Origin: a virus
Direction: 5' to 3' (one strand)
Virus record (IMG/VR): IMGVR_UViG_3300044627_000687
Span: 1 to 21,284 of that record
Length of the DNA: 21,284 nucleotides
In this document: piece by piece, positions 6,131 to 20,950 of the stretch
How positions within the stretch are numbered: position 1 is the stretch's first letter
Layout of the letters: the number at the start of each line of letters is the position of its first letter
Made by a program: the position numbers and the translations under genes
The notes under the pieces: generated by a model
Told to the model about the DNA's origin: nothing
What the model saw: only the letters and a program-made list of their open reading frames with translations
The model's database searches: none

Positions 6131-6226
6131 ATTGTGCCGTGTCCAACGTTTGACATGGTACCTTGGGAATTTTTTAAAATTTTTAGGGGGTGGGGTGTTT
6201 GGGATCAGGAATTTTGAAAATCTGAT

Positions 6227-6255
6227 TTGCGGTTGTGGAACAGTGTTTATATACG
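6227..6255 (+). promoter_or_regulatory. Candidate promoter for the rightward early genes
   Basis: TTGCGG (6227-6232), a 17-base spacer and TATACG (6250-6255) form a moderate sigma70-like match about 175 bases upstream of the first rightward gene. The position fits an early promoter and the downstream GGGACA dyad at 6395 could then act as an operator in the leader. Matches are partial and I cannot exclude a different promoter type. Confidence 0.3.
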
Positions 6256-6394
6256 CGTGGGTCGGGCGGCTCAATTAGGGGTGGTGGGGGATGGGTGGGG
6301 TCAACGTCACGGCAAAAACGCACCCCGCCAAAACACAAAACGCACCCATTCGGACAATAGAGGTATCGGTTAGGGAATGGTTCTTTAATCGATA

Positions 6395-6408
6395 GGGACA
6401 TTTGTCCC
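6395..6408. repeat. GGGACA-TT-TGTCCC dyad, copy 1
   Basis: This is an inverted repeat with 6-bp arms and a 2-base centre, located 22 bases upstream of the first rightward gene. It is the leftmost of seven copies in the window. The flanks (GAT before, GATTC after) resemble those of other copies. No T run follows, so it is not a standard terminator; an operator for a dimeric protein is more likely. Confidence 0.8.
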
Positions 6409-6430
6409 GATTCACATCAAGGAAATCAAA

Positions 6431-6838
6431 ATGACTTTATCTACACACATCACCACAGCACTCAACAGCGCATTGGCATACGGCGAGGCTATCGAGTTGG
6501 CACGCAAGGACGCCAAGGGTATGACGCGTGACGCGGTGCGCGACGTTATCTTGCCCATCGTGGCGAGCAAGTTCGGGGTGACGCTCAAGGACGGCGAGGG
6601 CAAGGCCAAGGGCACGAAGGTACTCGACAAGGATGCGGTCAAGTACGAAGCGGCCAAGAAAGCGGCTCAGAGATTATTGAAGGACATCTGCGGTGACGCA
6701 TCGTCAGGCAAGCAAGAGGAGATCGAAGTGCCTGCTGAGTTGGTCGAGATGGCCAAGAAGCTGGCGAAGCTCGCTCAGAAGTACGAGGGTGCTCGATCAC
6801 TGGCATCGAAAGCAGTTGCCATTGCATTTGCTCAATAA
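6431..6838 (+). CDS. Hypothetical Lys/Ala-rich helical protein
   Basis: This 135-residue protein is preceded by AAGGAAATCAAAATG. It is rich in Ala, Lys and Val and predicted to be almost wholly helical (for example ALNSALAYGEAIELARKDAKGM, AVKYEAAKKAAQRLLKDIC and VEMAKKLAKLAQKYEGARSLASKAVAIAFA). There is no signal peptide, membrane segment or cysteine motif. The middle (GVTLKDGEGKAKGTKVLDKD) is basic and polar and might contact nucleic acid, but no named domain is recognised. It is the first gene of the rightward region and sits between the first and second GGGACA dyads, so it is likely early-expressed and possibly regulated through them. I do not assign a function. Confidence 0.8.
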   Translation: MTLSTHITTALNSALAYGEAIELARKDAKGMTRDAVRDVILPIVASKFGVTLKDGEGKAKGTKVLDKDAVKYEAAKKAAQRLLKDICGDASSGKQEEIEVPAELVEMAKKLAKLAQKYEGARSLASKAVAIAFAQ

Positions 6839-7108: not shown

Positions 7109-7321
7109 ATGCGCTCATTCATACAACCTCGCATCAAAGAAGTTGGCATCGTCACCATTCGTGGGCGTGACTTCCATATGCAGACCATCAGCTACGGCTC
7201 ACGCCATCAGGTTCACATCTTTCGCAAGGGTGCATTGCATCTGCGTGGCATGGTGTTCGAGACTCAGGCGTTGTACGATCAATGGAAGAATGGCATGCAC
7301 CAACTCGACCTGCCCTTTTGA
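7109..7321 (+). CDS. Hypothetical small basic protein
   Basis: This 70-residue protein starts at an ATG two bases after the previous stop, with AGGAGA just upstream. The sequence (IKEVGIVTIRGRDFHMQTISYGSRHQVHIFRKG, then ALHLRGMVFETQALYDQWKNGMHQ) suggests a compact beta-rich fold with a C-terminal helix. It is basic and histidine-rich with no cysteine pairs or membrane segment. A GGGACA dyad begins one base after its stop. I do not recognise the family. It is probably co-transcribed with the preceding membrane protein. Confidence 0.7.
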   Translation: MRSFIQPRIKEVGIVTIRGRDFHMQTISYGSRHQVHIFRKGALHLRGMVFETQALYDQWKNGMHQLDLPF

Positions 7322-7322
7322 T

Positions 7323-7338
7323 GGGGACATTTGTCCCC
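7323..7338. repeat. GGGACA dyad, copy 3 (full 16-bp palindrome form)
   Basis: GGGGACATTTGTCCCC has 7-bp arms and a TT centre and begins one base after a stop codon. A GATTATTGA 9-mer follows at 7346-7354. This is the longest uninterrupted form of the dyad in TT orientation, and its flanks match the extended pattern GAT-dyad-GTTC. Confidence 0.9.
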
Positions 7339-7399
7339 GTTCAAAGATTATTGAAAGACTCAGTGATTATTGTGTTGTTTTTTAGCACAATTCCTAGGT

Positions 7400-7687
7400 G
7401 TCCGTGCCTATGCAAAAGTGGACGAGCGTACAGACAGCCCGCAACCCGCATGGATGTTGGCCTGCACGATTTTGCGTCCACTATATACATACTTTTATTA
7501 TTATTAATATATATATATAAGAGTGTGTATAAGGGGGTGCATTTATTTTTCTTCAAGCCTTTTTTCTTTAAAGCCTTTTGCTCTTTTTGAAAAAGTATGT
7601 ATATGCTGGACGCATTTCGCTGTATCATACTATCCATGCGGGCTAGCGCCTGTCTACCCAATCGTCCGCGTTCATATAGACACGGAC
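7400..7687. repeat. Long inverted repeat with AT-rich centre (candidate origin or regulatory element)
   Basis: The left arm (7400-7496) and the reverse complement of the right arm (7591-7687) are both 97 bases and align without gaps, 66 of 97 identical by hand count. Identity is concentrated in blocks: GTCCGTG, CTAT, GGACGA, AGACA, CCCGCATGGAT (11 of 11), TGCGTCCA and ATATACATACTTTT (14 of 14). The spacers between blocks differ but keep the same length, which points to protein-binding or structural constraint. The 94-base centre (7497-7590) is AT-rich, with a run of TA steps and then T-rich tracts. In each arm GGACG and CGTCC can also pair with each other (8 bp in the left arm). The 413-base gap 7322-7734 that holds this element has no credible gene. 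Confidence 0.8.
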
Positions 7688-7734
7688 GCAACCCCCTAAA
7701 ATGTCAACCACGCACCTAGAAAGGTTCAATAATC

Positions 7735-8436
7735 ATGTACGAAAGCTATCTCAAGCTCACCCCCAACGAGTTGCACATGCGCCTAGCCCGAAGCCAACAC
7801 AAACGGCATCCTGCGGAAATTCAGTACATCAAAGATAAAGTTGCGGCTATGAAGGAGGCGATACGCGTTGATAAGATCACGCGCGCCAACAGACGCACCG
7901 AGTGGACGAAGGTGCTTGCACCTCTGAGGTACGAACTCAACAGTGCCAAGGTGGGCAGGGCCTACAACGGGGACACTTGTCCCCATCGCATCGAAGCGTT
8001 CGATGCCTACATTGCGGTGATGGAGAAGTTGAACGCCATGCTTGCGCACCCAGCCAAGGTGTTGGAGAAGACGCCCATACAGATGGCCACGGCTAAAAAC
8101 TTGCCCAACAACGGCGAGCACTGGACTGACTGGATACCGCAGAGAATAAAGACGCCCATCAGTGAGGCGTTCATGGAGATACCGCATAAGGCCAAGGCCA
8201 AGCGCAAGATACCTTTCTTGCGGACAGTCACGCCCAACTTACACGCCAAGGCTAAAAAGAGATTATTGAGTAAAACAACCAAGGAGATGCAAACCTTGGA
8301 GACCCGCATCCTCATGCAACCTACCGAAGAAAGGCAAGACCAACTCAAGAAAATGCAAGCAGCACTCAAGATTATTGAAGCAATGGAGGATGGTGTATTC
8401 ATCCCAGCCTCTTGGCGAGGCATCGTCACCGAGTGA
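7735..8436 (+). CDS. Hypothetical basic helical protein next to the inverted repeat
   Basis: This 233-residue protein is preceded by AAAGGTTCAATAATCATG, so its start sits directly against a TCAATAATC element. It is Lys- and Arg-rich (for example KAKAKRKIPFLRTVTPNLHAKAKKRLLSKTTKEMQTLETR) and predicted to be mostly helical with a C-terminal coiled coil. This composition is compatible with DNA or RNA binding. No known domain is recognised. It carries a GGGACA dyad inside its coding sequence (7969-7984, encoding NGDTCPH) and two GATTATTGA 9-mers in two different reading frames. Being first after the long inverted repeat makes it a candidate partner of that element, but this is inference from position and charge only. 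Confidence 0.75.
   Translation: MYESYLKLTPNELHMRLARSQHKRHPAEIQYIKDKVAAMKEAIRVDKITRANRRTEWTKVLAPLRYELNSAKVGRAYNGDTCPHRIEAFDAYIAVMEKLNAMLAHPAKVLEKTPIQMATAKNLPNNGEHWTDWIPQRIKTPISEAFMEIPHKAKAKRKIPFLRTVTPNLHAKAKKRLLSKTTKEMQTLETRILMQPTEERQDQLKKMQAALKIIEAMEDGVFIPASWRGIVTE
7969..7984. repeat. GGGACA dyad, copy 4 (inside a coding sequence)
   Basis: GGGGACACTTGTCCCC has 7-bp arms and a CT centre and lies wholly inside the 7735-8436 gene, where it encodes GDTCP. The arms are perfect despite the coding constraint. Confidence 0.85.
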
Positions 8437-8453: not shown

Positions 8454-8469
8454 GGGGACAAATGTCCCC
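8454..8469. repeat. GGGACA dyad, copy 5 (AA orientation)
   Basis: GGGGACAAATGTCCCC, the reverse-orientation form, lies 17 bases after the stop of the upstream gene and just before three 11-bp direct repeats. The preceding GAT and following ATT resemble the flanks of other copies. Confidence 0.9.
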
Positions 8470-14115: not shown

Positions 14116-14764
14116 CATCCAAACCGCCTTCAAATCGGCACTAACTAGAACCTTAACTGAGTGGGATGACGATGAGGGGACATCTGTCCCCGTTCCTTCC
14201 TCTGCCCAACCAGTGTCAATCTCTTCTGTAACAACTCAGGGAATTCCCATGGCCAAGAAAACTTTTAACGTGACCAACAACGTATCACGCGTGACCTTTG
14301 AATACATCAAGAACAACCCCGGCTCCACACGCAAGGAGATCATGACCGCGCTTGAGTATCAAGGGTTCGGTGGTGGGTCAGTCTCTAGCCTGATCGCGCA
14401 GATGCGCCGTAACAAAATGATTCACGAAACCAATGGCCTGCACTACGCAGACATCGATGAGTATCGCCCAATCAAGACGCTCAAGGCTTTACAGAAAACG
14501 AACGAGCCCGCACCCAAGCGCAAGTACGAGAAGAAAGCCGTCACAGGTATCGGTGCGTTGCTACGCGAGAAGCTGGAGAACACCCCTATGCCTAGTCAAG
14601 ATGCGCTTGATGCTGCTGCCTATGCCATGGGCGGGCATGCACCACAACGCAGAGCGTTTGTGTCCCTCGTGCGTACGCAAGACCCTGACGAGATCATCAA
14701 GAAGCTCACAGTATTCCAAGCGCGGGAGTTGTACGACCGCCTCAAGCAAATCTTTAACGCGTAA
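14108..14764 (+). CDS. Winged-helix DNA-binding protein (candidate regulator)
   Basis: This 218-residue protein starts after AGGAGGAACCTCAA. The N-terminal ~47 residues are a low-complexity Ser/Pro/Val-rich leader. A winged-helix-like domain then spans about residues 55-115: VSRVTFEYIKNNPGSTRKEIMTALEYQGFGGGSVSSLIAQMRRNKMIHETNGLHYAD, with a helix, a turn, a recognition helix (GGSVSSLIAQMRRNKMI) and a wing. A basic linker (PKRKYEKKAVTG) follows, then a helical C-terminal domain (ALLREKLENTPMPSQDALDAAAYAMGG, then AFVSLVRTQDPDEIIKKL and an ARELYDRLKQIF end helix). A GGGACA dyad lies inside the leader coding region, so the protein could regulate itself by binding these dyads, but this is untested. 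A second ATG (MAKKTF) at residue 48 has only a weak site. Confidence 0.7.
   Translation: MPDIQTAFKSALTRTLTEWDDDEGTSVPVPSSAQPVSISSVTTQGIPMAKKTFNVTNNVSRVTFEYIKNNPGSTRKEIMTALEYQGFGGGSVSSLIAQMRRNKMIHETNGLHYADIDEYRPIKTLKALQKTNEPAPKRKYEKKAVTGIGALLREKLENTPMPSQDALDAAAYAMGGHAPQRRAFVSLVRTQDPDEIIKKLTVFQARELYDRLKQIFNA
14176..14191. repeat. GGGACA dyad, copy 7 (inside the winged-helix gene)
   Basis: GGGGACATCTGTCCCC has 7-bp arms and a TC centre and is followed by GTTCC as in other copies. It lies in the coding sequence of the winged-helix protein near its N-terminus, encoding GTSVP. It is about 4.6 kb from copy 6 and is the rightmost copy. Confidence 0.85.
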
Positions 14765-15459: not shown

Positions 15460-15471
15460 GCTGAACGCCAC

Positions 15472-16107
15472 AGCAGGCTAGGCGCGGCGCGGTTCGTTGC
15501 GGTTTGGTTTGGTGTGGCATGGTATGGCTGGGCACGGCAGGCATGGCGCGGCGAGGCGCGGCTAGGCCCGGAGAGGTCTGGACAGGCACAGCAAGGCAGG
15601 CTTGGTTCGTCAAGGCGCGGTAAGGCACGGCACGGCACGGCTCGGTTTGGCATGGCAGGCATGGCAAGGCATGGACAGGTTTGGCACGGTTTGGCCCATC
15701 AAGGTACGGCAGGCGAGGACTGGCGGGGCGAGGACTGGCTAGGACGAGTGAGGCATGGCAAGGCAGGCACGGCTCGTTATGGCGGGGCTTGGTAGCGACC
15801 GGTTTGGCTCGGCAAGGCAGGCATGGATAGGCGCGGATCGGCGCGGTCAGGCTCGACTTGGTAAGGTGTGGTTTGGCACGGCAGGCGGGGTTCGGCGTGG
15901 CATGGCGCGGTGCGGCAGGGTTGGGTTCGGCGTGGCACAGCAAGGCAGGCTAGGCGAGGCGAGGTGCGTTCAGGCGTGGTGTGGTACAGCAAGGTAAGGC
16001 AGGCATGGCTCGTTTAGGCATCGCGTGGTAGGACACGGCAGGCGGAGCGGGGCTGGGCGGGGCTAGGTGTGGTGGGGTGTGGCACAGCAAGGCATGGAAT
16101 AGCAGGC
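15472..16107 (+). repeat. G-rich pentamer array with periodic tetramer resets (11 units)
   Basis: From 15476 the plus strand reads as consecutive pentamers of form GGHNN. Each run closes with a GGCA tetramer (AGCA at the two outer ends) and then restarts. Units contain 12, 11, 11, 10, 10, 10, 12, 12, 10, 7 and 12 pentamers: 117 in total, 101 of which begin with GG. The boundary GCAGGC occurs at 15473, 15537, 15596, 15655, 15709, 15763, 15817, 15881, 15945, 15999, 16038 and 16102. The spacings are 64, 59, 59, 54, 54, 54, 64, 64, 54, 39 and 64, every one 4 modulo 5. Position 3 after GG is never G. Four units carry GGYACAGCAAGG near the end. The 678-base gap between genes is filled by it; open frames inside it are by-products. 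Two-tetrad G-quadruplexes with 3-base loops could form on the plus strand or its RNA. Confidence 0.95.
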
Positions 16108-16137
16108 ACCCCTATATTTTTTAACAAGGAGAAAACT

Positions 16138-20288: not shown

Positions 20289-20950
20289 AAAAACCAGCAT
20301 GGTCACACAGCAGCCTAAAAGATTTTGAGGGCTGTCAGCGCAGGTATCACGAGGTCAAGGTCTTAAAGAAGTACCCCTTCCAAGAGACTGAGGCCACGCG
20401 CTACGGCAATCAGGTACATCAGGCCATTGAAGACTACATCAGGGACAAGAAGCCAATACCGCCTGAGTATGCGCAGTTCCAGCCTGTGGTGGACGCTATG
20501 CTGAACAAACCCGGACGAGCTTTGGCTGAGTACGAGATGGCGCTGACTGTGGACTTACGCCCTACCAACTGGAAGGCGCCAGACGTATGGGTCAGGGGTA
20601 TCGCGGACATCTTGGTCATCGATGACGAGAACCTTACGGCGTGGGTGGGTGATTGGAAGACAGGCAACAACAAGTACCCCGACAGGGATCAGCTTGTACT
20701 TATGTCGCTTATGGTTTTCTCTCACTTTCCGCACATCCGCAAGGTCAACTCAGCGTTGCTGTTCATTGTCAAAAATGATATGGTCAAGATGCAGATGACA
20801 CGCGATCAATCTGAAGCCTTCTGGTGGAAGTATCGTGAGCGTACTGCGCGGCTCGAAGCATGCTTTGAGAACGATGTATGGAACCCCAATCAAACCCCAC
20901 TATGCGGATGGTGTCAGGTCACCGGATGCGAGTTCAACCCTAAACACTAG
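20285..20950 (+). CDS. PD-(D/E)xK exonuclease, Cas4/RecB-like, with putative Fe-S cluster
   Basis: This 221-residue protein shows the RecB-family nuclease layout. It has SHSSLKDFEGCQRRYHEVK with an early Cys (C17), GNQVHQAIEDYI, EYEMAL, GIADILVIDD with the acidic residue, and GDWKTG containing the D-x-K catalytic pair. DQLVLMSLMVF follows. The C-terminus CGWCQVTGC with the N-terminal Cys makes a four-Cys set typical of Cas4 and AddB iron-sulphur nucleases. Such proteins degrade DNA ends and serve phage recombination. It is coupled to the HExxH gene by ATGA and followed by an HNH gene. No cas genes are present. Confidence 0.85.
   Translation: MKKPAWSHSSLKDFEGCQRRYHEVKVLKKYPFQETEATRYGNQVHQAIEDYIRDKKPIPPEYAQFQPVVDAMLNKPGRALAEYEMALTVDLRPTNWKAPDVWVRGIADILVIDDENLTAWVGDWKTGNNKYPDRDQLVLMSLMVFSHFPHIRKVNSALLFIVKNDMVKMQMTRDQSEAFWWKYRERTARLEACFENDVWNPNQTPLCGWCQVTGCEFNPKH

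Follow-up and report, generated by a model that had tools for sequence, protein, structure and literature searches.

What is the function of a long mirrored sequence lying between two early genes of an uncultured freshwater phage? The DNA analysed here, called the window, is a virus record of 21,284 bases. Its closest terminases (~50% identity) are those of HTVC027P/HTVC023P-type pelagiphages, phage 023Pt_psg01, and phage DSL-LC04. We know of no origin or initiator that has been established for most uncultured phages. A preliminary description had proposed protein sites in mirror symmetry and a candidate replication origin, with a divergent regulatory element among the alternatives. From the sequence comparisons presented below, we estimate a probability of roughly 0.6 that the element is an origin of phage DNA replication, or one of several.

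Mirrored arms and the A+T-rich centre

The gap of 413 bp (7322-7734) was recovered as described earlier. It belongs to the early gene unit and separates ORFs coding for 70 and 233 amino acids (p70 and p233), both of which are directed rightward. The two arms align without gaps at 66 of 97 positions and are separated by 94 bp. The best gapless inverted-repeat score in the gap was 35, compared with a mean of 9.5 (sd 1.2, maximum 17) in 300 dinucleotide shuffles, and a scan of the whole window yielded no second inverted repeat with a score of at least 20. The blocks listed before (GTCCGTG, GGACGA, AGACA, CCCGCATGGAT, TGCGTCCA, and ATATACATACTTTT) were all found, equally spaced in the two arms. 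The mirror symmetry extends further than had been noticed, and the outermost pair of 9-mers shares nearly the same centre. The coordinates of the features are collected in Table 1.

Table 1. Features of the mirrored element and of its flanking genes (window positions).
Feature	Position	Strand	Remarks
p70, gene across the element from p233	7109-7321	+	no co-divergence with the element
Outermost mirrored 9-mer GATTATTGA, left	7346-7354	+	
Left arm	7400-7496	+	gapless alignment, kept gapless in relatives
Half-site GTCC, left arm	7400-7403	+	offset -45 from core
Half-site GGAC, left arm	7420-7423	+	offset -25
Half-site AGACA, left arm	7432-7436	+	offset -13
Left core block CCCGCATGGAT	7445-7455	+	CCGC invariant in 20-arm alignment
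Half-site GTCC, left arm	7476-7479	+	offset +31; TGGC in class B relatives
Duplex-unwinding-element candidate	7482-7531		least stable 50 bp of the window by nearest-neighbour energies
A+T-rich centre between the arms (94 bp), itself non-palindromic	7497-7590		orientation constant in relatives
Right arm, mirror copy	7591-7687	-	gapless alignment
Half-site, right arm, GGAC on + strand	7608-7611	-	offset +31
Right core block ATCCATGCGGG	7632-7642	-	from arm alignment
Half-site, right arm, TGTCT on + strand	7651-7655	-	offset -13
Half-site, right arm, GTCC on + strand	7664-7667	-	offset -25
Half-site, right arm, GGAC on + strand	7684-7687	-	offset -45
Outermost mirrored 9-mer TCAATAATC, right	7726-7734	-	abuts the p233 start codon
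p233, basic (pI 9.9) all-helical protein without known family	7735-8436	+	candidate cognate DNA-binding/initiator protein, co-diverges with the element

The 9-mer GATTATTGA is present, on either strand, at window positions 6672, 6832, 7346, 7726, 8261, and 8370; the last two copies, 109 bp apart, are located inside p233. In the window and in the related records G002, G003, and G005, its copies are clustered no further than about 1 kb from the element.

The positions of the half-sites were counted from the CCGC core as an anchor. In most genomes both arms carry GTCC at -45, GGAC at -25, AGACA or GGACA at -13, and GTCC at +31. Such multiple copies of one short motif at fixed spacing, found in most arms of about 40 relatives, are a feature expected of an initiator-dependent origin. 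Direct-repeat sites on one side of the unwinding element, as in iteron arrays, were not found here; a direct pair is limited to the sites at -25 and -13, and the whole array is mirrored on both sides.

The A+T-rich centre noted in the preliminary description contains the 50 bp of lowest duplex stability in the window. The equivalent stretch also ranks first for instability in G005, G002, G003, G012, G009, and G006. Easily melted A+T-rich DNA beside the sites, which is likewise expected of an origin, thus occurs in all seven family records tested (21-66 kb; G006, 65.7 kb), about 5-6 sd off the mean. The circular genome of DSL-LC04 (61.5 kb) also has its 50 bp of lowest stability beside or within a 36-bp mirrored repeat (arms at 20562-20597 and 20729-20764), which lies in the gap 5' of its terS genes.

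Conservation of the element and the switch of half-sites

Scanning for exact matches to the innermost block, together with searches with TerL and p233, gave many related viral contigs with the same gap. They form a large group of uncultured phages with a terminase akin to those of DSL-LC04 and HTVC023P-type pelagiphages. It had been suggested that the gap be aligned in relatives; there, both arms are kept and the mirror symmetry recurs. In about 40 relatives, the half-sites keep constant distances to an invariant core of the CCGCATG type. The element itself is strongly variable in sequence. The identity between the arms was 96/128 in L033, 96/130 in L061, 92/129 in L018, 74/110 in L122, 72/101 in L016, and 65/86 in G012. 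L091 and L056 show weak symmetry; in the class of G006, described below, it is limited to the core and the inner parts. Each long record scanned contains a single such element, and all mapped relatives carry it in the p70-p233 interval.

The same scan of HTVC023P, HTVC027P, and 023Pt (first 29-50 kb) detected no mirrored repeat of comparable strength, so the architecture is not demonstrated across the whole wider group. The passages found in the literature on HTVC023P-type phages and DSL-LC04 mention neither an origin nor an inverted repeat.

In one set of relatives, class B (L010, L015, L024, and others), GTCC/GGAC is replaced by TGGC/GCCA at the corresponding sites of both arms, and the orientation is kept. 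TGGC is placed at +30/+31, and GCCA at -25/-24 and often, where visible, at -13/-12. Three further contigs (L009, L034, and L049) are intermediate between the two half-site types. A coordinated change of the motif in two arms is what a trans-acting protein of altered specificity would demand.

Co-divergence of p233 and the element

The model of p233 is confident (mean pLDDT 89). Searches of Pfam, NCBIfam, PHROGs, PDB sequences, and annotated phages gave no convincing match to the protein, and Foldseek returned no match to the model below E 2 in the PDB. A second look at the model with VIA gave Z values of up to 7.2 with unrelated helical proteins and was uninformative; in BFVD, the model matches two models from uncultured phages. 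By sequence or fold, p233 resembles no known initiator, and no ATPase or helicase signature was detected in it.

The distance between elements tracks the distance between p233 proteins, with r of 0.85-0.98 among contigs that are not phylogenetically independent. After controlling for TerS, TerL, portal, p135, p70, p577, or p400, the partial r was 0.86-0.96, and permutations gave 0/1000 for six of the seven controls and 2/1000 for p400. The divergence of the element does not follow TerS, TerL, or portal. No contribution came from p70, which borders the element on the opposite side (partial correlation with the element 0.01, from distances computed on trimmed proteins). Part of the correlation between p233 and the element results from linkage, because the two are neighbours.

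The same relation is seen between the classes. Members of class B share 88% identity in p233 and those of class C 83%, against 54% across the two classes, and TerL remains at about 90-92% throughout, with the caveat that classes B and C differ from the window in p577 and p400 too. L091 has 97% identity to the window in TerS, 96% in p135, 99% in p70, 87% in p577, and 94% in p400, yet only 61% in p233. Downstream of p233 in classes B and C (G002, G003, and G005), the 577- and 400-amino-acid genes of the window are swapped for genes of about 690-714 and 368-372 amino acids.

Distant homologues of p233 possess an N-terminal CxxC/CxxC motif (hhalign E 1.7e-7). A modelled example has a small N-terminal beta/loop part followed by a helical part. 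In the G006 set, the gene of such a homologue closely follows an A+T-rich element that shares the CCGCATG core and differs in its flanking sites. In L149-L156, and in G006 near 6171-6797, the CxxC/CxxC homologues lie 3' of an element flanked by TACCCACCA and AAGTGGGCCAGTTA.

Candidate origin and competing readings

The proposal of mirrored protein sites forming a candidate origin gains support from the half-sites at fixed offsets, the two-arm motif switch, the instability peak, and the single copy per genome. We consider the element real, conserved, and specific, and the p233 family beside it a plausible new family of origin-binding proteins. A basic phage protein, most likely p233, would occupy in several copies the roughly four half-sites of each arm, which are arranged in mirror image. 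Once bound, the arms would flank and melt the A+T-rich centre over about 50-95 bp, where helicase and primase could then be loaded for replication in both directions. Binding by p233, melting of the centre, and a replication start at this place are inferences from the sequence. Cumulative GC skew had been put forward as a check on the origin. GC and AT skew both follow gene direction, and the nearly unidirectional DSL-LC04 has no skew reversal; the skew is therefore uninformative on this point. The missing resemblance of p233 to known initiators, the weak symmetry in L091, L056, and the CxxC class, and the large distance of the primase, helicase, and polymerase genes in DSL-LC04 count against an origin.

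The main rival is an operator and promoter region of p233. Here, the half-sites would be operators, either for p233 itself (autoregulation) or for a different regulator. They would surround one or two promoters within the A+T-rich centre, from which p233 would be transcribed to the right and perhaps an antisense or late RNA to the left. We regard this as unlikely, though it accounts for several of the observations: the element stands directly 5' of p233 and co-diverges with it as an operator would with its repressor, promoters can also occupy unstable DNA, and several sigma-70-like matches directed leftward fall inside the element. The same sigma-70 scan counted four promoter-like sites over 2.7 kb, compared with 3.0 in shuffled DNA; none of them is directed rightward. 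Moreover, mirrored multi-site arms of 97-130 bp with a centre of 94-103 bp are larger than a usual operator, and the CCCGCATG core was not seen at the other early promoters of the window. As for the divergent regulatory element named in the preliminary description, this function fits worse than an origin, since the element is placed between two genes that both run rightward, within the early unit and about 1 kb from the divergence point of the early and late (terS-terL-portal) genes; this placement also counts against the operator reading.

That the terminase recognises the element as a packaging (pac/cos) site is quite improbable. This reading is suggested by terS, the first gene of the late operon, at a distance of about 1.4 kb. 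It is disfavoured because TerS and TerL are nearly constant while the half-sites switch: in L010 and L107, both are mostly 92-98% identical to those of the window, and in L018 TerL is 96% and TerS 82-83% identical. A packaging site would be expected to follow TerS in its specificity; once p233 is accounted for, the similarity of the element is not predicted by that of TerS (partial correlation -0.57).

It is very improbable that the arms act as RNA, either as a long hairpin or by encoding a pair of small RNAs. A long interrupted hairpin can be folded from either strand (z -5 to -15), which is trivial, as any inverted repeat must fold in this way. Among 20 aligned arms, no consensus structure was obtained within the arms (0 pairs), and the Rfam scan of the window was without a match. 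The mismatches between the arms also speak against this function. They are fixed at spacer positions, and on the + strand C facing C is enriched (81 observed vs 36 expected), while wobble-type changes are not. From this pattern it follows that the arms are not homogenised as a whole. Gene conversion is an unlikely cause of the similarity of the arms, given that mismatched spacers persist at fixed places. The C-C polarity might, as a guess, reflect selection against hairpin formation in mRNA transcribed rightward.

The inverted arms flanking a spacer also recall the terminal inverted repeats of a mobile element, a hairpin-telomere resolution site, or a recombination site, but these are extremely improbable: the locus is unchanged in relatives of very different sequence (a transposon or MITE would be expected at variable positions), the arms co-diverge, the orientation of the centre is constant, no adjacent transposase or integrase was seen, and the 94-bp centre is asymmetric where telomere resolution requires a palindromic one.

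Returning to the candidate origin, its parts have counterparts in several known systems. Iteron plasmid origins combine repeated short sites, a DNA-unwinding element, and an initiator gene close by (PMC4980987, PMC4081077). The element is similar in its repeated short sites, unwinding-element candidate, and nearby candidate initiator gene; iterons are direct repeats on one side, whereas the sites described here are mostly inverted pairs in a wholly mirrored array. In ori-lambda, the initiator (the O protein, which binds iterons) has several sites beside A+T-rich DNA that melts, and its gene is close by (PMC7466680). The element shares the sites, the A+T-rich region, and an adjacent candidate initiator gene, but here the arrays are mirrored on both sides of that region, the element is located outside the candidate gene, and p233 has no detectable relation to any known initiator. 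The oriS of herpes simplex virus, with its origin-binding protein UL9, carries binding boxes in opposite orientation on the two sides of an A+T-rich spacer, and the length of this spacer is important (PMC12543377). The layout of opposed sites flanking an A+T-rich spacer is alike, but the proteins have no detectable relation, p233 has no helicase domain, and the phage element has about four sites per arm, a conserved core, and a spacer of about 94 bp. Without detectable protein kinship, and with a mirrored layout that differs from iteron origins, the element was not classed with ori-lambda or oriS. The joint diversification of a regulator and its cis sites on a shared backbone may also be likened to the repressor/stoperator system of mycobacteriophages (PMC6550527); stoperators are single scattered sites, whereas the element combines its sites in a single compact mirrored array with a melting region in the middle.

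The family of p233 could, tentatively, represent a new and structurally unrecognised class of origin-binding proteins acting on mirrored arrays that enclose a melting region. With protein and sites changing together rapidly in an otherwise conserved genome, incompatible origin types might then arise among phages that share a host. If this is true, phages with nearly identical structural genes are split into distinct origin types. The analysis provides a precise candidate origin and a candidate initiator for a large family of freshwater phages, and the natural series of matched protein and site types makes the specificity testable by swapping.

Two other kinds of repeats were observed. A stretch of about 640 bp without a convincing gene (window 15466-16110) contains degenerate GGCNN-like pentamers, with a G+C content of about 60% and a strong G skew; Tandem Repeats Finder did not report it. 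Palindromes of the form GGGGA...TCCCC are present in 3-7 copies per genome, in the early region only. They are located at 7323-7338, 7969-7984, 8454-8469, and 14176-14191 of the window, with one copy within p233, and were also found in G001, G002, G003, G005, L009, L010, L101, and L104. Their inner stems (GACA..TGTC, GAGA..TCTC, GAAA..TTTC, or GACT..AGTC) vary between genomes and are mostly uniform within one, and the palindromes resemble operators, stoperators, or mRNA hairpins.
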